Below are positions 1 through 9,311 of a stretch of DNA of 9,509 nucleotides, piece after piece (positions within the stretch are counted from its first letter, which is position 1; each line of letters opens with the position of its first letter). Source of the stretch: Chloroflexota bacterium (GTDB lineage: Bacteria > Chloroflexota > Anaerolineae > Ardenticatenales > Ardenticatenaceae); contig DOUV01000478.1 of the NCBI GenBank assembly GCA_003520455.1, positions 1-9,509 on the forward strand. The letters are read 5' to 3'. The notes beneath the pieces are model-generated. The model was given only the letters and a program-made list of their open reading frames with translations, did not search any database and had not been told where the DNA came from. The position numbers and the translations under genes are program-made.

Positions 1-148
1 GTCTCGTGGCCGAGCGGGCCGCGCCGATTTGAGCCAGCGGATACCGGCCGGCCAGGAAACCGATCGGCGCCGGGCGCCGGCCACAAGAGTGGGCAATCGG
101 TTTTATTCTGCACGCACCGGGGCGCTTTGGATTCGAGAACCGTAGGGC
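1..148 (+). other. Upstream flank with possible tail of a preceding gene
   Basis: Only nine codons of one plus-strand frame (bases 3-32) are open before a TGA at 30-32, reading LVAERAAPI. This could be the C-terminus of an upstream gene, but it is too short to test. The rest of the stretch shows no convincing coding frame. It is dominated by GC-rich self-complementary words such as GGCCGGCC at 46-53 and a terminator-like fold that is listed separately. Confidence is low for the gene tail and moderate for the absence of another gene. Confidence 0.25.
57..104 (+). terminator. Possible intrinsic (perhaps bidirectional) terminator
   Basis: AAACCGAT at 57-64 is perfectly complementary to ATCGGTTT at 96-103, and a further T follows at 104. 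This gives the A-run, stem, T-run look of a bidirectional terminator. Inside the stem, CGGCGC (65-70) pairs with GCGCCG (74-79) in a compact GC hairpin. The fold begins about 25 nt after the stop codon of the possible upstream gene. The closing stem is short and the fold is branched, so the terminator call is tentative. Confidence 0.35.
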
Positions 149-177
149 TTGCATCAGCGCACCGACTCTATTACAAT
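149..177 (+). promoter_or_regulatory. Candidate sigma70-type promoter for the CARF-HTH gene
   Basis: TTGCAT at 149-154 (four of six matches to TTGACA) and TACAAT at 172-177 (five of six matches to TATAAT) are separated by exactly 17 bp, the ideal spacing for a housekeeping sigma factor. In such GC-rich DNA this pairing is notable. Transcription would start near 184 and leave an untranslated leader of about 340 nt before the start codon at 525. No other similarly good box pair was found closer to the gene. The call rests on sequence match only. Confidence 0.4.
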
Positions 178-524
178 GGGCTTGGAACAAGAAGAAAAGA
201 ACCTCTGATCTCTCCGTATGGCCGGCCTCCTGCTCTACCCGGCCGGCCGGTAGTACGCCCAAGTGGACAGCAGTGCCTGCCTGCCGCCGTGCCGCGGCCG
301 CTCCCGGTGGAGCCCACTATGTCTCAACTCAGTTCCATCCGTCGTTCGGCCTTTGATCGTCGCGCCGGTTGTGCCCTGCTGGGTGCCAACCGGCGCGTTG
401 CTTGTCAGGCGGTCTTTTGCCCGGCCCCGATGTTTGGTAGGCGGTGTCTGAGGAGCGGCCCATCGTCCAGACCAACAGCCTGGGGTGATTGTGGAGAGTC
501 CGCGGCCGTGGAAGGCACGATCAG
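178..524 (+). other. Long structured leader upstream of the CARF-HTH gene
   Basis: These 347 bases contain no convincing gene. An open frame through 127-540 has Arg/Pro/Gly/Cys-rich low-information content, no ribosome binding site, and overlaps the start of the next gene, so it is treated as non-coding. The stretch does hold two GC-rich inverted repeats: GGCCGGCC at 220-227 against 241-248, and an 11-bp perfect arm pair at 361-371 and 387-397. With the candidate promoter at 149-177 it reads as a structured 5' untranslated region or an overlapping small RNA. No known riboswitch consensus was recognised. Confidence 0.35.
361..397 (+). repeat. Strong hairpin in the leader
   Basis: CGCGCCGGTTG (361-371) is perfectly complementary to CAACCGGCGCG (387-397). 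Five more pairs (372-376 with 381-385, two of them G-U) close on a four-base loop TGCT at 377-380, leaving one bulged base at 386. The result is a stem of about 16 pairs. No run of T follows it, so it is not a classical terminator. It lies about 130 nt upstream of the CARF-HTH start codon and could be a regulatory RNA hairpin or a protein-binding site. Confidence 0.5.
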
Positions 525-1376
525 ATGCGAACTATATTGATGGCCCCCTTGGGACCCCAGCCCCAAGCACTGACGTTTTGCCTGGCGCTGCTCGCGCGTC
601 AAGGCGTGCGTATCCATGAAGTGGCGGTGGTCCACACCGCTGCCGACCTCGAACCAATCCAGGGCGCCTTGGCACGGCTGTGGCCCGCCCTCGCCGACCA
701 CCAGCCCCACATCCGCGTCCGGCAGTATCCGATCCTCGAGAACGGCCGGCCGCTGACCGATGTGGTGACGGCCCACCAAGCCCAAGCCTATCTCAACACG
801 TTCTACCTGGCGTTGCTCGAGCTCAAGCGACAGGGAGCGGCGATCCACCTGAGCGTGGCCGGGGTGCGTAAGTTAATGACCATGTACGCCTTGGTCGCTG
901 CACAACTGCTCTTCGACGAGGGGGATCGCCTCTGGCATCTCTACACGGCGCCCGAGGTCATCCAACGCGGGGAGTTCTGGCCGCGCCTGGAGGACGAAAC
1001 CATGTTGGTCGAGGTGCCGGTTTTGCGCTGGAGCGCCGCCGCTCCGGTGCTCACGCGGCTGGGTGCGATCGCGGACCCCTGGGACGCCGTCCATGAGCAG
1101 GAAGAGCAGCACCGTCGTGCGGCAATTGCCCTGGCGGCGGCCTTTGTCGAGCAGCGACTGACGCGGGCGGAGCGCGAGGTGGCCGCACTGGTTGTAACCG
1201 AGGGTCTCAGCAATGCCGAGATCGGCGCCCAGCTCCACAAAACCGAGAAGACGGTCGTGCACCAGATGAGCAGCATCCTGCGCAAGCTGGCCGACCACTT
1301 CACGCTGTCGCCCAACGCGACTGTGGACCGGACGACACTGGTGCGGTTGGTGGGCGGGTACTACTTGCTGCGGTGA
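525..1376 (+). CDS. CARF-domain protein (NE0113/TIGR02584-like) fused to a LuxR-type HTH; putative cOA-responsive regulator
   Basis: This 283-residue protein has two parts. Residues 1 to about 165 resemble the NE0113/TIGR02584 CARF family: an N-terminal strand and turn (ILMAPLGPQPQAL), a central motif SVAGVRK at 110-116 equivalent to the family's S-x-AGGRK, and GDRLWHLY at 133-140. Such domains bind cyclic oligoadenylate, and some relatives are annotated as ring nucleases. Residues 212-255 are a LuxR/GerE-type DNA-binding helix-turn-helix (LTRAEREVAALV, GLSNAEIG, KTEKTVVHQMSSIL-KL). The expected role is a cytoplasmic transcription factor that responds to the messenger made by the neighbouring Cas10. 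ATG 525 was chosen because GGAAGG (510-515) lies 9 nt upstream and the family's N-terminus begins here; a TTG at 489 is in frame but would add unrelated residues. One family-motif glycine is replaced by Val114. The target promoter and any ring-nuclease activity are unknown. Confidence 0.85.
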   Translation: MRTILMAPLGPQPQALTFCLALLARQGVRIHEVAVVHTAADLEPIQGALARLWPALADHQPHIRVRQYPILENGRPLTDVVTAHQAQAYLNTFYLALLELKRQGAAIHLSVAGVRKLMTMYALVAAQLLFDEGDRLWHLYTAPEVIQRGEFWPRLEDETMLVEVPVLRWSAAAPVLTRLGAIADPWDAVHEQEEQHRRAAIALAAAFVEQRLTRAEREVAALVVTEGLSNAEIGAQLHKTEKTVVHQMSSILRKLADHFTLSPNATVDRTTLVRLVGGYYLLR

Positions 1377-1380
1377 GGCG

Positions 1381-1458
1381 GGGACTACAGCGAATAAGGA
1401 AAGGAACGAATGGAGATGTGCACCTTAATTCGTTGATTTCTTCATTCGCTGTAGTCCC
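1381..1458. repeat. 78-bp imperfect palindrome between regulator and cas10
   Basis: The outer arms GGGACTACAGCGAAT (1381-1395) and ATTCGCTGTAGTCCC (1444-1458) are perfect 15-bp inverted repeats. Inner arms AACGAAT (1405-1411) and ATTCGTT (1428-1434) share the same axis at 1419.5, and partial pairing fills most of the remainder; about 31 of 39 positions match across the axis. It begins 4 nt after the regulator's stop codon. No T-run follows, so it is not a textbook terminator. It could be a small MITE-like element, a hairpin that protects or ends the regulator transcript, or an operator. It is more AT-rich than the flanking genes. Confidence 0.7.
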
Positions 1459-1631
1459 TGGCGCTGTTGCCGAACGATTCTCGTGGGAATCTCCATGGAA
1501 GTTTGGACGAATTTAGGAGTTGGTTCCGATGCAGACCCGGTGGAGATACTCTATGATGGAAACCTATCACGCCTCCCGCTATCCAGGTTACGACACGTCT
1601 CGCCAGACCATACCTTGAGAGGAGTATTTGC
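1459..1631 (+). promoter_or_regulatory. Intergenic leader of the cmr operon
   Basis: This 173-base stretch should contain the promoter and translation signals of the effector operon if the operon is not transcribed from the regulator. I found no well-spaced pair of promoter boxes. TATGAT at 1552-1557 resembles a -10 element but has no good -35 partner. The stretch ends with the cas10 ribosome binding site GAGAGGAG (1617-1624), 7 nt before the GTG start. It also contains a possible 29-codon ORF, listed separately. Confidence 0.35.
1529..1618 (+). CDS. Possible 29-residue leader peptide upstream of cas10
   Basis: An ATG at 1529 preceded by AGGAG (1515-1519, 9-nt spacing) opens a 29-codon frame that ends with TGA at 1616-1618. 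The stop overlaps the cas10 Shine-Dalgarno, and cas10 starts 13 nt later, a geometry suited to translational coupling or a leader-peptide control. The peptide begins MQTRWRYSMME and is polar, with four Tyr and four Arg residues and no membrane segment or recognisable family. It may be a chance ORF: the frame is short and the only support is the ribosome binding site and the spacing. Confidence 0.3.
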   Translation: MQTRWRYSMMETYHASRYPGYDTSRQTIP

Positions 1632-3473
1632 GTGCAAAACGATTCCTACTTGATGCTTGTGAGCATCGGCCCTGTGCAGGGCTTCATCGCTGATGCCCGC
1701 CGCAGCCGCGATCTGTGGTTCGGGTCCTGGCTGCTTAGCGAGCTGGCGAAGGCGGCGGCGCGCCAGCTTGTTGCCCAAAACGGAATCGCGCAACTGGTCT
1801 TCCCGGCGCCCGAAACAGTTGATGACCTGGAAGCGTCCAGCAAGCTTAACGTTGCCAACAAGATCGTGGCGCGTATCCAGGGAGATCCGACCGGGATAGG
1901 CCGGGCCGTCGAGCGGGCAGTGCGACAGAGGCTCACTGAGATTCGTAACGACGCTTTCAAACGTATCAGTGGCGAATTCGACCTCCAAACAGCCACAGCC
2001 CAGGTTGATGATCTGGTCGAATTCCTCTGGGTCGCGCATCCACTGGACGGCGGCAACGATGACAAACGGGTCCGCGACCGATTGGAAGCGCTGATGGCGG
2101 CGCGCAAGGCGACACGTGATTTCCGCCCTGGTGCGGGGCAGAGCAATCAGCCCAAGTCGTCACTCGATGGACTGCGCGAGTCGGTCATCCCGGAACATGC
2201 CTACCCCTTGCGCAGAGAGCTGGAAGCCGTGCGCAAGCACAAAGCCGCGACGCTCTACAACCGCTACAAGGCTGGTCCCGCCGAACGACTGTCAGGGGTG
2301 GATTTGCTCAAACGCCATGGCTACCGCGGAGATGAATCGCACTTTCCCAGCACCTCGCACATCGCGGCACTGCCTCTCATCACTCGGCTGGAGCAGCAGG
2401 AGGCCGACATCTCTGGCGCCTGGGCGCAGTATCTCGCTACGCTCAAAACCCTGGAAGCCTTCGAGGTGGAAGAGGTGCCTGCACGCTTTGCCAACGATCT
2501 TACCGGGCGGCATGACGGCTCGCTACTCTTTCCGGACCGGCTGGCGGGGAACCTGGAAGGGGACGATCTACACGTTGCCCAACAGGCGCTCGCTACGTTC
2601 CTCGAAACAACTACTGGCGGTCTGCATCCTCAGCCCTACTATGCCATCCTCGTAGCCGATGGCGACGGGATGGGCAAGCTGATTGATGCCCAACCTACGT
2701 TAGCCCAGCACCGCGAACTCTCTCGCGCGTTGGATGGCTTCGCCCGGCGAGTGCCGAACATCATCGAGCGCGAGCACCGGGGCGCTCTGGTCTATGCGGG
2801 CGGCGATGATGTGTTGGCCTTCCTCCCGCCGCATACGGCGCTACTCTGCGCCCGCGCCCTGGCCGATACTTTCAAAAAGGCTTTGAGCAACTTCCACTAC
2901 GACGATGGGCAAGATGCCAAACACCCGCCGACGCTCTCGGTTGGCCTGGCCGTTAGCCACCACATCGAGCCGCTGTCAGATGCGTTAGCGTTGGCTCGTA
3001 GTGCCGAAAAGTGGGCCAAGCAACTGCCTCGCAAGAATGCCCTTGCGGTGACGGTGAGCAAGCGTAGCGGCGCGGAGCGGCGAGTGTGTGGTGTCTGGGG
3101 TACACTCGATGCCCGGCTTGCCTACTTCATCACCCTCCACCGCGCCGACGCCATCCCCGACGGTGCCGCCTACGAGTGGCGGGGGGTTGCCCGCAGCCTG
3201 CATCATCCCAAGCCCCCGGCGGGCGGCGACGATACCGTGTACAAGACCGCGCAGGAGGCCCTGCGCCGCGAGGTGCGCCGTGTGCTGCGCCGCAAGCGAG
3301 CCGAGCACGGGACGGCCCCCCTTGCCAACAGGACGCTAGACGACCTCGACCGGATGATTCTTGATCCCACTGTGGACATCGACCATCTAGCCGACGAACT
3401 CATCCTCGCCCGCCTCTTCGCCGACGCGGAGGACATCGCCGGGCTTCCCTTGAAGGAGGCAACCCCTGTATGA
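1632..3473 (+). CDS. cmr2: Cas10/Cmr2, large subunit of the type III-B effector complex (HD-less)
   Basis: This 613-residue protein is the signalling subunit of the Cmr complex. When target RNA is bound, Cas10 converts ATP into cyclic oligoadenylates. It opens directly with the Cmr2 N-terminal motif (SIGPVQGFIADARRSRDLW from residue 11), so the N-terminal HD nuclease found in some Cas10 proteins is absent and DNA cutting is not expected. The first palm carries DGDGMG at 343-348 and the second carries the catalytic GGDD at 390-393, both intact. The Cys pairs that hold zinc in Pyrococcus Cmr2 are replaced: KSSLDG at 175-180 and ERLSGVDLLKR at 218-228 sit where Cys-x-x-Cys would lie. The start is GTG 1632, placed by GAGAGGAG 7 nt upstream and by the conserved N-terminus. 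The stop overlaps cmr3 by 4 nt. Confidence 0.95.
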   Translation: MQNDSYLMLVSIGPVQGFIADARRSRDLWFGSWLLSELAKAAARQLVAQNGIAQLVFPAPETVDDLEASSKLNVANKIVARIQGDPTGIGRAVERAVRQRLTEIRNDAFKRISGEFDLQTATAQVDDLVEFLWVAHPLDGGNDDKRVRDRLEALMAARKATRDFRPGAGQSNQPKSSLDGLRESVIPEHAYPLRRELEAVRKHKAATLYNRYKAGPAERLSGVDLLKRHGYRGDESHFPSTSHIAALPLITRLEQQEADISGAWAQYLATLKTLEAFEVEEVPARFANDLTGRHDGSLLFPDRLAGNLEGDDLHVAQQALATFLETTTGGLHPQPYYAILVADGDGMGKLIDAQPTLAQHRELSRALDGFARRVPNIIEREHRGALVYAGGDDVLAFLPPHTALLCARALADTFKKALSNFHYDDGQDAKHPPTLSVGLAVSHHIEPLSDALALARSAEKWAKQLPRKNALAVTVSKRSGAERRVCGVWGTLDARLAYFITLHRADAIPDGAAYEWRGVARSLHHPKPPAGGDDTVYKTAQEALRREVRRVLRRKRAEHGTAPLANRTLDDLDRMILDPTVDIDHLADELILARLFADAEDIAGLPLKEATPV

Positions 3474-4660
3474 CCATCTGGATCATTGAACCGCGTGATC
3501 CCCTGATTGTGCGAGACGGACGGCCCTTCGGCCCAAACCCTGGCGCCCGGGCCAGATCGCTGGCCTTTCCTTTCCCGTCAACGACCACCGGTGCCGTGCG
3601 TACCAGTGCCGGTCTGAACGAGCAGGGCCACTTCACGGCCTCGCCCGAAGAGATGGGCCGCCTCGCTGTGCGCGGTCCGCTGTTGGTCGAACTCAACGAC
3701 CAGGAGGGCGAGATCGCGGACTGGCTGGCTCCAGCTCCGGCGGATGCCCTGCTCTTCCAGGAGGCAGACGAGCGGCAGGCGACAATCAAGCCGCTTGTAC
3801 CGCTCCAACTGTTTGCCGGTGCGCAAACCAACCTCCCGGACGGCCTGGCCCTCGTTGGGCTGCCTGGTCCTAACCCAGCCAAGCCTCATCCCAAGGCGCC
3901 GCGTTTTTGGTTCTGGGGGGCATTCGAAAGGTGGCTCATCGGGCCGGTGGAGCGCCCGAGAGTGCCCTTGAAAGAATTGGGCCACAGTGGGCCGGAACCT
4001 GAATACCGGATGCACGTCAGCATCGCTGCCGATACACTGACCGGGGTCGAGGGCGCTCTCTTCCAAACCAACGGGTTGGAGTTCACCCACCCGGCTCCCG
4101 ACTCTCAGCGCCACCTCAGCACCCCGCGCCGACTGGCCCTGGCAGTGGTTGTGAAAGACGACGCCAAACAGCCGCGCGAGGGATTGGCCCCATTCGGCGG
4201 CGAGCGCCGCCTGGCCACCTGGCGGCAGAGTTGTCGGGCACTCCCGGTCTGTCCGCCCAAGGTACGCCAGGCGATTGTAGAGCAGGGACACTGCCGGTTG
4301 ATTCTGCTCACCCCCGCCATCTTCGCGGGGGGCTATCGGCCGGCCTGGGCCGGGCAGCCTGCCGACGGCGTGACCCTCTCGCTCGCGGCTATTGCCATGC
4401 AGCGGGCACAGGTGGTGTCGGGGTGGGATTACACCTTGAACAATGGCCACGGTGGTCCCAAGCCAACCCGTAAGGTTGCCCCGGCGGGCACGGTCCTCTT
4501 CCTCAAGCTCAGCGGAAGCCCCGAGGCGATTGGAGCATGGGTGGACCGACACTGGCTGACCTGTGTGAGCGATGGTGACCAGGACCAATGCGACGGCTTT
4601 GGGATGGCTGCCCTGGGAACCTGGGATGGAAAGCCCCACCCGATGGAGGATGCCCCATGA
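3470..4660 (+). CDS. cmr3: Cmr3, type III-B RAMP subunit
   Basis: Cmr3 is the Cas5-like RAMP protein that sits beside Cas10 at the base of the Cmr complex and holds the 5' tag of the crRNA. The 396-residue product shows the family hallmarks in order: EPRDPLIVRDGRPF at 7-20, STPRRLAL from 217, FGGERRL from 242, a W-D-Y segment at 319-321 with KPTRKVAPAG at 331-340, and a C-terminal glycine-rich DGFGMAALGTW beginning at 375. Length fits the family. ATG 3470 overlaps the cas10 stop (ATGA) and has GGAGG at 3455-3459, 10 nt upstream. A long antisense open frame over this gene is considered a GC-rich shadow. The family call is firm. Confidence 0.93.
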   Translation: MTIWIIEPRDPLIVRDGRPFGPNPGARARSLAFPFPSTTTGAVRTSAGLNEQGHFTASPEEMGRLAVRGPLLVELNDQEGEIADWLAPAPADALLFQEADERQATIKPLVPLQLFAGAQTNLPDGLALVGLPGPNPAKPHPKAPRFWFWGAFERWLIGPVERPRVPLKELGHSGPEPEYRMHVSIAADTLTGVEGALFQTNGLEFTHPAPDSQRHLSTPRRLALAVVVKDDAKQPREGLAPFGGERRLATWRQSCRALPVCPPKVRQAIVEQGHCRLILLTPAIFAGGYRPAWAGQPADGVTLSLAAIAMQRAQVVSGWDYTLNNGHGGPKPTRKVAPAGTVLFLKLSGSPEAIGAWVDRHWLTCVSDGDQDQCDGFGMAALGTWDGKPHPMEDAP

Positions 4661-5934
4661 GCAGGAAACTTCCTGATATCACACCGCCCGAATTGAAAAT
4701 GCGCGCCGATGACATCACCGTCACACAGACGCGCGTCTACCGCCTGATTACACCTCTCTTCGGCGGCGGCGTTACCCCTGCCGAGGCCGATCCCATCACC
4801 GTGATTCGCGGCAGCTCGATTCGCGGCCACCTGCGCTTCTGGTGGCGAGCCTGCCGGGGCGGCAAGCCCGAGTTTCAGGGCAGCCTCGCCAGGATGAAGG
4901 CAGCCGAAGATGCCATCTGGGGCACTGCCAGCACCGAGGGAGGGGCTGGGCCGTCAAAGGTGCAGATTGCTGTTCAGATCAACAACTCGGGAGTTGAGGA
5001 GCGGCCCTTTGAAGTGCGTGGCGGTCGGTGGGGCAGACCGGAAGTCAAGCTCCGCTCTGATACTAACGTCCCTGGTTACGCCGCATTTCCGCTTCAGCCA
5101 AAGAAAGAAGAGGCGAGGGTAGGGATGACAACCAAAGCCGTTCGCGTCGGGGTCTCCTTTACACTCACCATCTCTTTCCCGCGCGACTTCCGCGAAGATG
5201 TCGAAGCAGCCTTGTGGGCCTGGGAGACATTCGGGGGCGTCGGGGCGCGCACCCGGCGCGGTTTTGGTGCGTTACAGTTGGTCAGCGTAGATAACGAGGA
5301 AAGGCAGCCACCGCCCGCCAAAAGAGCACAAGAGGTTATTATCCGAAACTTCAGGCGACACGTAGCAAGAGGCTTCGATATACCTGGTGTACCACAACTG
5401 CTGCAACATCTCGTAGTCACAGAAAAAGTCTTCGGGGATGCTCAGGCCGCATGGCATTTTCTGATAGAGAAGCTGCAAGAATTTCGCCAAGAACGATATG
5501 ACAGTAAGTATGGTCTGAGCAAGTGGCCTGAAGCCAATTCCGTCCGACAGTTCGCGAATCGTAACCCTCGCGGAAAATCACCGAGGGTCTTGAAGTTCCC
5601 TCGTGCATACTTTGGGCTTCCCATTATCTTTCACTTCCGACATGACCGGGATCTACGGGATGCCACGCTAAAAGGAATCTCAACTGAGCGATTGGCAAGC
5701 CCTCTCATCCTCCGTCCACTCCTGTGTCGAGGGGACAGGGCGGTTGGTCTGGCCGTAGTTCTGTCTGTTGAACGCCTTCCTCCAGGAAGTCTCTGGTTGG
5801 ACGGAAAGGACCGAGGGTTGCCCAGAAAGGTAGACGCTGACTTAACATCTGAGGAAGCCCAAAGGATAGAGCCCCTGAATGGTGAAACGGATGTACTTCT
5901 CGCTTTCCTTAACACACTTTTAGGAGAAAGGTAA
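4657..5934 (+). CDS. cmr1: Cmr1, type III-B RAMP subunit
   Basis: Cmr1 is a double-RAMP protein at the head of the Cmr complex, near the 3' end of the crRNA. The 425-residue product has the first RAMP signature (TPLFGGG at 32-38, DP at 45-46, IRGSSIRGHLRFWWRA at 50-65) and the glycine-rich loop FGGVGARTRRGFGA at 192-205. The second half keeps SKWPE and the ERLASPLILRPL block. ATG 4657 overlaps the cmr3 stop (ATGA) with GGAGGA at 4645-4650, 6 nt upstream; the in-frame ATG at 4588 lies inside cmr3 and is rejected. From about 5300 on, the coding sequence becomes visibly richer in A/T and in A/T-ending codons than the first half, while the protein remains recognisable. This may reflect recombination or a less constrained domain. 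Confidence 0.93.
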   Translation: MSRKLPDITPPELKMRADDITVTQTRVYRLITPLFGGGVTPAEADPITVIRGSSIRGHLRFWWRACRGGKPEFQGSLARMKAAEDAIWGTASTEGGAGPSKVQIAVQINNSGVEERPFEVRGGRWGRPEVKLRSDTNVPGYAAFPLQPKKEEARVGMTTKAVRVGVSFTLTISFPRDFREDVEAALWAWETFGGVGARTRRGFGALQLVSVDNEERQPPPAKRAQEVIIRNFRRHVARGFDIPGVPQLLQHLVVTEKVFGDAQAAWHFLIEKLQEFRQERYDSKYGLSKWPEANSVRQFANRNPRGKSPRVLKFPRAYFGLPIIFHFRHDRDLRDATLKGISTERLASPLILRPLLCRGDRAVGLAVVLSVERLPPGSLWLDGKDRGLPRKVDADLTSEEAQRIEPLNGETDVLLAFLNTLLGER

Positions 5935-5936
5935 CC

Positions 5937-6827
5937 ATGAATGCTCGCCTGCTTTTCGTTCATGCCCTCTCCCCACTCCATGCCGGAACCGGACAAGGTG
6001 TTGGGGTGGTTGACCTACCCATTGCCCGCGAGAAGGCCACCGATCTGCCCTTCCTGCCCGGCTCGTCGGTGAAAGGGACGCTGCGCGATGCCTGCCAGGA
6101 CCGGAAAAAGACCGCGGTCTTCGGCCCCGACACCAGCAACGCCAGCGACCATGCCGGGTCAGCGCAATTCTCCGACCAACGGCTGCTGCTCCTGCCCATC
6201 CGCAGTCTATCGGGCACCTTCGCCTGGGTTACGTCGCCCTACATCCTGCGCCGCATCGTCCGCGACGCGAACGATGCGGGAGCTACGGGGGTACCACACC
6301 CTGTCCCCGTACCTGACGCTCGTGACAAGTGCCTGGTGCCCCAGAACGACTGCGACATCTGCCTCAAAGACGCCAAGGATCAGGTTCGTGTTTACCTCGA
6401 AGATCTGGACTTGCAGGCGACCACGGGCTCCGAAGTCACACAGTGGGCAGATTGGCTCAAGCAGCGCATCTTTGCAGATTCCCCCGATTGGCAACGGATG
6501 CTGAGCGGGCGTTTCTGCATCGTCCACGACGACGTGATGAGCTTCTTGCTCGAGACCGCGACCGAGATTACAGCACGTGTCAAGCTCAAACCAGATACCA
6601 AAACCGTTGATACTGATGTTGGTGGCCTCTGGTACGAGGAGTCGCTCCCAACAGAGACAGTTTTGTACGGGTTGGTGGTGGCAACGCCCATCGCCAGGAC
6701 AAAGCTCACAGCATCGGAACTCTTCCAGGTAGTGGAGGCGCTCACGCAGCAAACGCTGCAATTTGGCGGCAAAGCGACGGTGGGGCGCGGTCTCTGCCGT
6801 CTTCAGATGGTGAAGGAGGGAGGCTGA
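5937..6827 (+). CDS. cmr4: Cmr4, backbone subunit and target-RNA endonuclease
   Basis: Cmr4 is the Cas7-like subunit that forms the repeated backbone along the crRNA and cuts bound target RNA at 6-nt intervals. The 296-residue product has the conserved N-terminus HALSPLHAGTGQGVGVVDLPIARE. Its Asp26 corresponds to the catalytic Asp26 described for Pyrococcus furiosus Cmr4, so target cleavage should be intact. The IPGSS-type loop appears as LPGSSVKGTLRD (from about residue 39), and a glycine-rich C-terminal segment (FGGKATVGRG) follows. Three cysteines cluster at 132, 139 and 142, an unexpected local feature. ATG 5937 begins 2 nt after the cmr1 stop, with AGGAG at 5922-5926. Confidence 0.95.
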   Translation: MNARLLFVHALSPLHAGTGQGVGVVDLPIAREKATDLPFLPGSSVKGTLRDACQDRKKTAVFGPDTSNASDHAGSAQFSDQRLLLLPIRSLSGTFAWVTSPYILRRIVRDANDAGATGVPHPVPVPDARDKCLVPQNDCDICLKDAKDQVRVYLEDLDLQATTGSEVTQWADWLKQRIFADSPDWQRMLSGRFCIVHDDVMSFLLETATEITARVKLKPDTKTVDTDVGGLWYEESLPTETVLYGLVVATPIARTKLTASELFQVVEALTQQTLQFGGKATVGRGLCRLQMVKEGG

Positions 6828-6828
6828 G

Positions 6829-7197
6829 ATGCAAACGCGCGATCAGCAGTACGCTACCGCTGTTTACAGACAGGTCTCTGAAGACGTCGGGGAGGCAGAG
6901 CGGAAGAAGTATGGCTCGATGGCGCACAAGCTGCCCGTGCTGATCCGCACCGCCGGGCTGGCACAAGCGCTAGCCTTCGTGGATACGCGGGGCGACGACA
7001 CACACCACAAGTTGCTCAACCACCTGGCTGTGACTGTCGGCTATGGCTCGGGCGAGAAACTGCTTGAGGCCAGCCGCACGGCCCAGCTTGGCGCCTACAT
7101 GCACCTCACGCAGAAAGTGTTGCAGGCGTTGCTCTGGTACAAACGCTACGCTCAATCGGTGCTCGATGTTGATCCGAGCCAGGAGGATCGCCGATGA
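6829..7197 (+). CDS. cmr5: Cmr5, small helical subunit
   Basis: Cmr5 is the small all-helical subunit that stacks on the Cmr4 backbone and helps bind the target RNA strand. This 122-residue product has the usual size and pattern for the family: an N-terminal QTRDQQYATAVYRQV segment, a central KYGSMAHKLPVLIRTAGLAQALAF region, and a final helix containing LQALLWYKRYA. No catalytic residues are expected. ATG 6829 lies 1 nt after the cmr4 stop with AAGGAGG at 6813-6819, 9 nt upstream. The stop overlaps cmr6 by 4 nt. Its position between cmr4 and cmr6 supports the call. Confidence 0.9.
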   Translation: MQTRDQQYATAVYRQVSEDVGEAERKKYGSMAHKLPVLIRTAGLAQALAFVDTRGDDTHHKLLNHLAVTVGYGSGEKLLEASRTAQLGAYMHLTQKVLQALLWYKRYAQSVLDVDPSQEDRR

Positions 7198-7988
7198 GCA
7201 CTCGTCGCTCACCGCTTGTGTTTTTCGGAATGCCGGAGCAAACGACACATGCCGGGCTCTGGCTTGATAAGTACGTCCGCGACCAAACCCGTGACGATGT
7301 AGAGAGCCGCCATCAGTTGGTTCAACAGGTCGCCGGAATACCGGAGCCCGATTTTTATCCGGGCTTCTTTCAACGGTGGAAGGATGCGCTCGCCGGGTGC
7401 GGTGCCGTCCTGCGAGAAGCCCGCGTGCAAGGGCGCATGGTCATCGGGATGGGGAACGAGAGCGTGCTTGAAACCGCCGTCACCCTCCACCGCACCTACG
7501 GAGTGCCCTACATCCCGGGCAGCGCTCTCAAGGGGCTGGCCGCCGCCTACGCGCGCCAGCGGCTTGATCAGGCAACGTGGGGTGAGGGAAGCGCCGCCTA
7601 CAACATTGTCTTCGGCACGGCAACCAACACGGCTCCCGCTGCCGCCGCCCCCGATCTGGACGATGGTGGCGCTGCGGGCTACGTGACCTTCTTCGACGCA
7701 CTCCCAACGCCCAACCAGAGGGGACCACTGCTCCACGCCGACGTACTGACGGTCCACCATCCTGCCTACTACCGGGGTGAACAGGATGTGCCACCCGCCG
7801 ACTGGGACAGCCCGACGCCGATCCCGTTCCTGAGTGCTACGGGGACATATCTCGTCGCGCTGGCAGGCCCAGAAGCGTGGCTGGAGCGCACCTTCGAGAT
7901 TTTGCAGAGGGCGCTGAGAGAGATGGGGGTAGGGGCGAAGACATCGAGTGGGTATGGGCGCCTTCTTCTCCATCCTCCCGGAGGATGA
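7194..7988 (+). CDS. cmr6: Cmr6, type III-B RAMP subunit
   Basis: Cmr6 is a Cas7-like RAMP protein that joins the top of the Cmr4 filament to Cmr1. The 264-residue product carries the family motifs in order: RMVIGMGNESVLET starting at 81, YGVPYIPGSALKG at 102-114, HADVLTVHHPAYY starting at 181, and the C-terminal glycine-rich GVGAKTSSGYGR at 245-256. The segment PPADWDSPTPIPFL is also typical. ATG 7194 overlaps the cmr5 stop (ATGA), with AGGAGG at 7181-7186, 7 nt upstream. A short palindrome lies across its stop codon. It is the last of the tightly packed cmr genes; the next gene starts after a 42-nt gap. Confidence 0.95.
   Translation: MSTRRSPLVFFGMPEQTTHAGLWLDKYVRDQTRDDVESRHQLVQQVAGIPEPDFYPGFFQRWKDALAGCGAVLREARVQGRMVIGMGNESVLETAVTLHRTYGVPYIPGSALKGLAAAYARQRLDQATWGEGSAAYNIVFGTATNTAPAAAAPDLDDGGAAGYVTFFDALPTPNQRGPLLHADVLTVHHPAYYRGEQDVPPADWDSPTPIPFLSATGTYLVALAGPEAWLERTFEILQRALREMGVGAKTSSGYGRLLLHPPGG
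7971..7987. repeat. Short perfect palindrome across the cmr6 stop
   Basis: CATCCTCC at 7971-7978 and GGAGGATG at 7980-7987 form a perfect 8-bp inverted repeat around a single C, so as RNA about seven pairs could form on a three-base loop. It overlaps the last codons and stop of cmr6 and sits just before the only sizeable gap in the operon. No T-run follows. It might modulate read-through into the csx1-like gene, or be chance. Confidence 0.35.
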
Positions 7989-8030
7989 CTCCCCCTTCCT
8001 TAATGTTTGTTGAACCTGCGGAGGGAACTT

Positions 8031-9311
8031 GTGACGAAGTTAGTATGCTTTCTCGGAACCAGCAAATATTACGAAACTGTCTACACTTTTCAGGACCGGG
8101 AGTGTACAACTTGCTACTTCCCGGTGGCCGCAGCTGAGTTTTTCCAACCCGATTGCATTCTGCTCTTCGTCACCAAAGCTGCCGAAGATAAGCACCTGGA
8201 GCGGCTTCGAGCGGAGTTGGGTGGGCGTTTTGAATTACGGCCTGTCAATATCCCGGAGGGCAAACGCGAGGAAGAATTGTGGGAATTGTTTTCCAAGCTC
8301 ACCTCTCGGCTGGGTGATGGCGATGATGTGATCTTCGATATTACCTTTGGATTTCGCTCGATTCCTGTTCTCGCTACTATCGCTGCGTCGTACCTGCGAG
8401 TGGCGCGCAACGTGCGTCTGCAGAAGATAGTGTACGGCGCTTACGAGGCCAAAGACCAACAGGGCAAAGCTCCTGTTTTTGACCTGACTCCCTTCCTGGC
8501 CCTGCTTGACTGGACTACGGCGACCTACCTTTTCCTTCAAACTGGAATCGCCGCACCACTGGTGGAGCGCCTGCGCCAGGCTAACTGGTCATCTGGATTG
8601 CGCGCCGAGGCTCTGGAAGAGGTGACGGCGGCTATGCGCCTCACGCGCCCGGATGAGGCACGGTCGCTTGCATACCAATTTTCTCAGGCCCTGAGTACGC
8701 TCCATCTTGCCAGCCCGGCGGCGAAGCCCTTCGAGTTGCTGCTGGACCAGGTGCGAGACGAGTTTGCCCGCATTGCACCGCGCTCCCCCCAACCGGACGA
8801 TCTTGAGCAGGAGTTGCGCGAAGAATACGCCCTTATCCAGTGGAACTTCAACCGGGGGCAGTTCCTGTCAGCCATCACTGTGACGCGAGAATGGCTGGTT
8901 TCTCTCCTCTGCTGGCACGCGAACTGGACGACACATGTGACAGACAAAAACAGCGGTCAAGCAGTTCCTGCCTGGCGGAGTGAAGAAGTCCGAAAAAAAG
9001 GAGAAAAGGCGCTTAACCACCTCAAAGAGCTTGCCACACTGGATGAAGCTGAGCGTGCGAAGCAAATAGGATCAAAAACGCCGATCGCCCAGGAACTTTG
9101 GAAGCGCAACGCAGCCTATGCTGAGCAACTTGGTTCCGCATGGGGGTTGGCCAGTAGCCTGCGCAACGACCTGAACCACGCGGGCAAGGTCCATTCCACT
9201 ACCCCCCGCTCGCTCCGTGACATCCTCCACGAGATCGAGTGTACACGAAGAACTCTGACAGACCTTTTCACTGCCTCCGGTTTGGAGTCGCATCCGACGC
9301 CTACTCTCTGA
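8031..9311 (+). CDS. csx1: Csx1-family CARF-HEPN ribonuclease (TIGR02221/Csx2-like)
   Basis: Csx1-type proteins are cytoplasmic RNases that are switched on when cyclic oligoadenylate from Cas10 binds their CARF domain. This 426-residue product starts with the family N-terminus KLVCFLGTSKYYET, continues through a CARF domain with DITFGFRS at 103-110 and YGAYE at 135-139, and ends with a helical HEPN domain whose catalytic Rx4H motif is visible as R378-NDLN-H383. The family normally has DxTHGFRS at the CARF motif; here the His is Phe106. GTG 8031 is preferred because GGAGGG (8020-8025) lies 5 nt upstream and the conserved sequence begins here; an in-frame TTG at 8007 lacks such a site. The 42-nt gap after cmr6 suggests the same transcript with possibly separate control. 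Confidence 0.88.
   Translation: MTKLVCFLGTSKYYETVYTFQDRECTTCYFPVAAAEFFQPDCILLFVTKAAEDKHLERLRAELGGRFELRPVNIPEGKREEELWELFSKLTSRLGDGDDVIFDITFGFRSIPVLATIAASYLRVARNVRLQKIVYGAYEAKDQQGKAPVFDLTPFLALLDWTTATYLFLQTGIAAPLVERLRQANWSSGLRAEALEEVTAAMRLTRPDEARSLAYQFSQALSTLHLASPAAKPFELLLDQVRDEFARIAPRSPQPDDLEQELREEYALIQWNFNRGQFLSAITVTREWLVSLLCWHANWTTHVTDKNSGQAVPAWRSEEVRKKGEKALNHLKELATLDEAERAKQIGSKTPIAQELWKRNAAYAEQLGSAWGLASSLRNDLNHAGKVHSTTPRSLRDILHEIECTRRTLTDLFTASGLESHPTPTL

Follow-up and report, generated by a model that had tools for sequence, protein, structure and literature searches.

A gene at the head of a type III-B CRISPR operon from a Chloroflexota bacterium (contig DOUV01000478.1) encodes a protein in which a CARF domain is joined to a LuxR-type helix-turn-helix (HTH). 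In our judgement this protein probably serves type III CRISPR loci as a one-component transcription factor, namely as a Csa3-like activator responsive to cyclic oligoadenylate (cOA) with a LuxR-type output. The domains, the linkage to type III genes, a box in the promoters of one related clade, the register of this box to the -10 element and a genome control are all observed by sequence. "The window" means the whole stretch of DNA that was analysed, which is 9,509 nucleotides long.

The CARF-LuxR protein and its operon

Both domains of the protein match Pfam above the cut-offs. Cas_NE0113 is found with an E value of 5.5e-25 (88.8 bits against a curated cut-off of 23), and GerE with 6.6e-7 (29.3 bits against 23.5). 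A CARF sensor and a LuxR-type HTH in one ORF are what the first-pass annotation had read from the letters, and the profile search of residues 1-165 also gave a strong CARF match. The PADLOC model CARF3 matches the protein at 2.2e-80, although the best PADLOC label is only 'CARF' and another matching model is WYL/Csx1. The NCBIfam models TIGR02584 and TIGR03642 give scores under their cut-offs. The structure model and fold comparison reveal a CARF Rossmann fold, which is most similar to that of Sso2081. Foldseek alone does not separate LuxR from sigma matches for the HTH, but structural re-alignment assigns it to the LuxR type. A sigma-factor-like HTH was considered and rejected; sigma region 4 profiles stay under the cut-off and rank below LuxR proteins in the re-alignment. 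Among 53 aligned relatives, Cas_NE0113 is detected in all and GerE in 43 at E 0.01. Databases name this type of protein "Csx14" or "CRISPR-associated ring nuclease".

The regulator gene is followed on the same strand by cmr2-3-1-4-5-6-csx1 (Table 1). With cas10 and cmr1, 3, 4, 5 and 6 present, the locus is of type III-B. An inverted repeat with an RNA folding z of -7.8 begins directly after the stop codon of the regulator gene. It has no Rfam match at the gathering threshold, its outer arm has no copy in 82 loci with up to two mismatches, and one exact pattern of the hairpin found no match in viral contigs. It could be a mobile palindrome or a hairpin that serves processing or attenuation between regulator and cas10. 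Scans for consensus promoters and terminators near the regulator gene gave nothing informative.

Table 1. Features of the window, with positions counted from its first letter
Feature	Position	Strand	Remarks
CARF-LuxR fusion protein, 283 aa	525..1376	+	First recognised operon gene
CARF (Cas_NE0113) domain, residues 1-166	525..1022	+	
Ligand-pocket motif I, G10-P11-Q12	552..560	+	G-T-S at the equivalent place of Sso2081, by alignment
Motif II, G113-V114-R115-K116	861..872	+	GGRK in most relatives
Long linker helix between CARF and HTH, residues 185-211	1077..1157	+	AlphaFold model
LuxR/GerE helix-turn-helix, residues 211-255	1155..1289	+	
Inverted repeat between regulator and cas10, 78 bp	1381..1458	+	38-nt arms, 82% complementary
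Cas10/Cmr2	1632..3473	+	GGDD cyclase motif at 2799-2810, residues 390-393
Cmr3	3470..4660	+	
Cmr1 (start inferred)	4657..5934	+	
Cmr4	5937..6827	+	
Cmr5	6829..7197	+	
Cmr6	7194..7988	+	
Csx1-type CARF-HEPN effector (start inferred)	8031..9311	+	R-x4-H at 9162-9179

The ligand pocket

In the ring nuclease Sso2081, the catalytic motif I is described as G-T-S and motif II as G-R-K (PMC10018336). GxS/T is reported as the catalytic motif for cOA cleavage, and Csa3, which does not contain it, is reported not to cleave cA4 (PMC8844856). We surveyed both motifs in 71 sequences, which are the window protein and its counterparts from 70 loci. Motif I is readable in 69 of them. GxS/T is found in none of these 69, the window included, and their third position is never S or T. 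The majority carry G-x-E instead, and the window has G-P-Q. Motif II is GGRK in 67 of the 71 sequences and SGRK in three; GVRK occurs in the window alone, whose V stands in place of the usual second G. R115 and K116 are invariant in the 53 aligned proteins. Since GxS/T is absent while the R-K pair is kept, cOA binding is probable and cleavage by the protein itself is improbable. The self-resetting switch of the first-pass annotation, in which the CARF part would also cleave cOA, is thus disfavoured by motif I. G-P-Q and G-V-R-K recur in P0003 and P0005, two of the near kin of the window. The pocket of this clade is therefore changed, and its ligand may differ.

The CARF-HTH protein of two further loci, L081 and L082, is publicly annotated as 'CRISPR-associated ring nuclease'. 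These two loci lie outside the surveyed set, but because GxS/T is missing in the 69 sequences of that set, the name may mislead surveys.

Distribution of the family and linkage to cas10

The family profile matches 338 protein clusters at E 1e-10. At 58% identity, a partial protein from an Anaerolineae MAG is the closest named relative, and the near kin of the window protein are five protein clusters with 59-85% identity. The first-pass annotation had called a LuxR-type output unusual. The size of the family tempers this, as does the prediction of NE0113 regulators in 2014.

A genome scan gave 113 confirmed places, and the linkage counts use the best 80 of them. Close relatives inflate every count given in this text, and since the gene neighbourhoods were read with profiles derived from the proteins of the window, distant Cas proteins may be missed. 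In 59 of the 80 loci, the closest cas10 follows the regulator at no more than 3.3 kb in the same orientation, and in none of these 59 is it upstream or on the opposite strand. Twelve of the 21 loci without cas10 have less than 1.2 kb of downstream DNA; one of the twelve, L020, still contains Cmr1. Among the 68 loci with more than 1.2 kb downstream, cas10 is present in 59, and two more have Cmr1 as the next gene (L029) or Cmr3 (L055). The architecture is strongly linked to type III loci, and the finding that the first-pass annotation had named as contrary, a fusion mostly away from such loci, did not come about. In the remainder, L058 has a similar gene order without cas10 (its one scanned protein matched nothing), L052 offers nothing beyond a weak Cas3-HD-like protein at a distance of 3 kb, and no Cas match was obtained in the selected neighbours of L042, L046 and L048 or in one neighbour of L074.

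Some individual neighbourhoods differ in content. In an Acetothermia MAG (L071, 9986-13840), the CARF-LuxR gene stands before a type I-B cas8b with one ORF between them, and there is no type III operon. In a WOR-3 bacterium (L074, 6563-7426), it adjoins PBP2, and the profiles recognise no CRISPR gene in 17 kb. L055 is a Clostridia locus whose available sequence has no recognised cas10; there, Cmr3 is followed by a protein resembling methanogenesis marker 16 (8675-9859; TIGR03287, below the cut-off).

In a more distant sample, 40 of 400 genomes matched, 30 loci were obtained, and 20 were extended. Of these 20 Chloroflexota stretches, ten contain cas10, four reach the contig end within 0.5 kb downstream, and six have no cas10 despite sufficient room. 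Two Rhodothermus marinus plasmids carry a homologue with 36% identity, also annotated as 'CRISPR-associated ring nuclease', as the first gene of csm1-csm5. They are the mobile-element finds; there were no copies in phages, and none in IMG/VR when patterns of the window protein alone were used.

The ORFs that separate the regulator from cas10 are of at least two kinds. Eighteen mutually similar ones appear to resemble Cmr1, and 14 similar ones are of the Csx15 kind (all three that were scanned are Csx15). In 14 Chloroflexota loci within L113-L131, a P-loop protein of about 400 amino acids is encoded divergently, close to the CARF-LuxR gene. It has a Csx3/Crn3-like part, with TIGR02579 below the cut-off in the three scanned. 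The divergent P-loop protein also occurs in L126, L130 and L131, where no cas10 is seen.

A box in the promoters of one related clade

Alignment of upstream DNA revealed a recurring palindrome before the CARF-LuxR gene in Firmicutes-type loci. The box is a triple half-site, TRGTA-N6-TACY-N9-RGTA, and the 12 box-anchored representatives have all three half-sites. Between pairs of them, the average identity is 65% within the 19-bp core dyad and 32% in the flanking DNA. With fixed spacing, the 12-letter dyad scores at least 10 in 17 of 24 Firmicutes-type loci and at least 11 in ten, compared with 14 and 0 of 659 control upstreams taken from other ORFs of the same loci. When the spacing may vary from 4 to 10, a score of 11 is reached in 11 of 81 upstreams and in 2 of the 659 controls. 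Enumeration of dyads without a given word recovers the box in 9 of 19 members of the Firmicutes-type group (shuffle maxima 3-5), and gives no signal in 20 Anaerolineae-type and 31 other loci. The upstream DNA of 14 Chloroflexota loci was read by eye only. These numbers describe the loci from which the site pattern itself was derived, and the enumeration was done later, on groups of our own choice; the only independent evidence comes from matches that do not stand before a CARF-LuxR gene, from the control genomes and from the register to the -10 element.

A strong box, with a position weight matrix (PWM) score of at least 22, is present in 16 loci, 12 of which form the training set, and the next value is 10.5. 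In the protein tree, all 16 box-bearing loci fall into one clade of 22 rows (support 100/99), while none of the 52 other rows has a box. The label requires five gains or losses on the tree, so the box is not perfectly clade-wide. The window has no box; its best PWM score is 6.7, against 22-36 for the training sites. The box-bearing relatives are about 33-37% identical to the window protein in their best segments and lie outside its branch.

The box at other CRISPR genes

The exact pattern TRGTANNNNNNTACYNNNNNNNNNRGTA, derived only from CARF-LuxR upstreams, has 31 matches in 42 scanned genomes. Fifteen stand before a CARF-LuxR gene and are circular, as the motif was read there. Nine stand before other CRISPR genes, and seven have no recognised CRISPR gene (the surroundings were inspected for six; G037:C57 was left out). 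A reversed control pattern gives similar overall match numbers across the 42 genomes, so that the place of the matches counts and not their number. The nine are located before type I-B cas8b (L142, L145, L149, L155 and L158), before csx15 (L139 and L140), before cmr1-cas10 (L156) and before cas4-cas1 (L150). Six members of the clade have no box ahead of the regulator gene, and four of them carry one elsewhere: before csx15 in L055, before csx15 and cmr1 in L058, before cas8b in L059, and before cas4-cas1 in L078. The genomes of the other two, L049 and L079, have no box anywhere.

A PWM trained on the self-sites was used to search for a second box in eight stretches of 5-20 kb. It is found between cas6 and cas8b in L191, L192, L193 and L194, after cas6 in L196 and L198, and before cas4-cas1 in L195. 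Apart from the self-sites, no further score above 16 occurs in the eight stretches. PADLOC identifies the downstream operon of L191 as Cas8b-Cas7b-Cas5b-Cas3b and confirms Cas4 and Cas1 in L192; the other neighbours of second boxes were identified by sequence similarity and gene order. The Pelotomaculum contig L193 apparently contains two type I operons (1-9248 and 9586-17517; two TIGR02556 matches), and the box is present only at the one adjoining cmr6-cas6.

Genome control and promoter register

The genome control comprises 113 genomes of one class, 54 of which contain the exact pattern somewhere. The regulator is present in 19, Cas10 in 44, and a TIGR02556-type Cas8b in 36 at E 1e-8 (16 of these above the cut-off). 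An exact box lies upstream of 10 of 18 cas10 genes when the genome has the regulator and of 0 of 32 when it does not. For cas8b, the corresponding numbers are 5 of 11 and 0 of 26. Fisher tests give 4e-6 for cas10 and 0.001 for cas8b with kinship ignored. Within 20 kb of cas10 or cas8b lie 17 of 24 matches in regulator genomes, compared with 1 of 58 in the others. Two results count against the association. The exact box is missing within 600 nt of 7 of the 19 regulator genes, and L164 has a CRISPR-located box after cas6 on a 4.9-kb contig, although no regulator was detected in this genome, which is fragmentary.

At 10 of the 12 non-self CRISPR sites, a -10-like TAnnnT follows the box at a distance of exactly 32 bp, and among the 12 self sites 6 have it there. 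These counts leave out L149, L158 and L166, which duplicate the sites of L193, L192 and L194, respectively, as well as L145, a sister-genome copy of the L191 site, and L151, where the contig ends. At unrelated matches, the element is in register in 0 of 5 in the first scan and 1 of 26 in the second. The one exception is in L165 (1501), an unrelated-looking match whose neighbour on the opposite strand weakly matches the CARF-LuxR profile (E 2.2e-9). The -35 place beside the box matches TTGACA poorly. If TAnnnT is assigned to positions -12 to -7, the centre of the core dyad falls near -54. Because this position, the constant register and the weak -35 correspond to the placement of an activator, the geometry of the box appears to favour activation over repression.

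Proposed mechanism and alternative explanations

We infer the ligand, the allostery, the DNA binding and the sign of regulation as follows. Upon recognition of target RNA, Cas10/Cmr2 of the operon would synthesise a cOA, probably cA4, as its GGDD motif and the neighbouring Csx1 suggest. A dimer of the CARF-LuxR protein would take up this cOA in the CARF pocket via G-x-R-K, judging from fold and motif. The signal would then pass through the long helix to the pair of LuxR-type HTHs. The activated dimer is predicted, from the promoter anatomy of one relative clade, to bind the half-sites beside the weak -35 and to recruit RNA polymerase. As a result, its own type III operon would be expressed more strongly and, in the box clade, so would the genes for type I-B interference, for adaptation (cas4-cas1) and for the ring nuclease Csx15. 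Resetting of the signal would probably fall to separate ring nucleases, for example Csx15 or Csx3. Since the window has no box, the last two steps before this reset, DNA binding and gene activation, are transferred from relatives. The suggestion of the first-pass annotation that the protein boosts its operon or switches on other defences therefore fares differently in the two places: the shared site predicts it for the box clade, and the window has no such site.

The sign of regulation could be the reverse. A repressor or autorepressor that leaves the DNA upon cOA binding, so that detection frees the CRISPR promoters, is unlikely in our estimate, but it has points in its favour. The box stands before the regulator's own gene, and a self-site is also usual for autorepressors. 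Csa3b is reported to regulate adaptation as well as Cmr interference. What argues against repression is the position of the box, which ends about 33 bp ahead of the -10 hexamer, next to a weak -35 and clear of the core promoter, and which keeps a constant register at most of the non-self sites. It is also conceivable, with a still smaller probability, that the box belongs to another, unlinked regulator and that the CARF-LuxR protein binds something else. Binding of the box by the protein is suggested by co-occurrence, most of the family is without a box, and the box of L164 lies in a genome with no found regulator; yet 16 of the 22 rows of one protein clade have the box compared with none of the 52 outside, and near cas10 and cas8b it is limited to regulator genomes apart from a single match.

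The database names imply a different function altogether, in which the protein is mainly a ring nuclease and the HTH serves as a dimerisation part. The closest fold, Sso2081, the invariant R-K of motif II and the NCBI name all agree with this. Nevertheless, we consider it quite improbable, as no readable motif I has GxS/T, and other candidates for the cleavage of cOA are close at hand: a Csx15-like ORF between regulator and cas10 in 14 of 80 loci, and the divergent P-loop protein with its Csx3-like part in 14 Chloroflexota loci. Moreover, the HTH is of the LuxR type and has a linked promoter site in one clade. An activator that responds to cOA is thus the reading we prefer. A broader version of it, in which RNA detection by type III systems serves as the central alarm for the entire CRISPR island, has about an even chance of being correct. 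According to this version, widespread cOA-controlled LuxR-type activators would use one shared promoter box to raise the expression of their own operon, the type I-B effector, spacer acquisition and a ring nuclease by which the alarm is afterwards shut off.

Relation to known systems and significance

Csa3 (Csa3a and Csa3b of Sulfolobales) is similar in combining CARF with a DNA-binding domain, and it binds cA4. However, its HTH is described as a MarR-like winged HTH (PMC8699464) and its motif 1 as G-F-(N/D) (PMC8844856), in contrast to the LuxR-type HTH and G-P-Q of the window protein. Because HTH and motif 1 differ, the window protein is, by sequence, not a member of Csa3. Csa3 is archaeal, whereas the CARF-LuxR protein is bacterial and itself heads a type III operon. 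Csa3 connects type III signalling with type I and adaptation genes; a connection of this kind is predicted for the box clade, while the window has no box. The sites are also different, TCCC-N8-GGGA for Csa3 and the triple half-site for the box clade. Csa3a was reported to bind its palindrome nonspecifically with no effect of cA4, leaving the influence of the ligand on DNA binding unclear (PMC8699464), which counts against the mechanism proposed here.

By Pfam and PADLOC, the protein belongs to the same family as Cas_NE0113, Csx14 and CARF3. NE0113 proteins were predicted in 2014 to regulate transcription (PMC4012209); the LuxR output, the operator and the regulon do not appear in the available excerpt of that prediction. 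Crn1 (Sso2081) shares the CARF fold and the R-K of motif II, while the window protein lacks GxS/T and has the additional LuxR-type domain. In CalpL-CalpT-CalpS, a type III cOA signal also ends in transcription (PMC11229360). It acts through proteolysis of an anti-sigma factor, whereas in our proposal the sensor binds DNA directly. MM_0565 of Methanosarcina mazei is a CARF protein reported to affect transcription of a cas1-solo gene (PMC7465815); it is archaeal and tied to a casposon, and is likened to CARF-LuxR by description only. The LuxR-type one-component regulators VpsT and EL222 have the same HTH fold, and in both a sensor of a small signal drives a LuxR-type domain. The sensor of VpsT is receiver-like and recognises c-di-GMP, and that of EL222 is a LOV domain that perceives light. 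Both differ from the CARF sensor of the window protein.

According to a 2022 review, archaeal Csa3, a transcriptional regulator, is the one non-nuclease CARF effector that has been characterised by experiment (PMC9704534). Transcription factors were left out of a 2024 census (PMC11229360), and a 2025 classification counts transcriptional regulators among the effectors (PMC12669027). In the portions of the open-access literature covered by our search, no LuxR-type CARF fusion, no such box and no bacterial link from type III to type I-B through a CARF regulator was found.

The CARF-LuxR proteins form a widespread bacterial family with an output domain unlike that of Csa3 and, in one clade, a precise predicted operator. 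The predicted regulon covers two CRISPR types, and the relatives include named strains of Desulfofundulus, Pelotomaculum and Rhodothermus. The promoter could possibly serve as a cOA-responsive element for bacterial sensors. If the proposal is true, it would explain how a type III system could restrict the recruitment of DNA interference and new spacers to the time of an ongoing infection.
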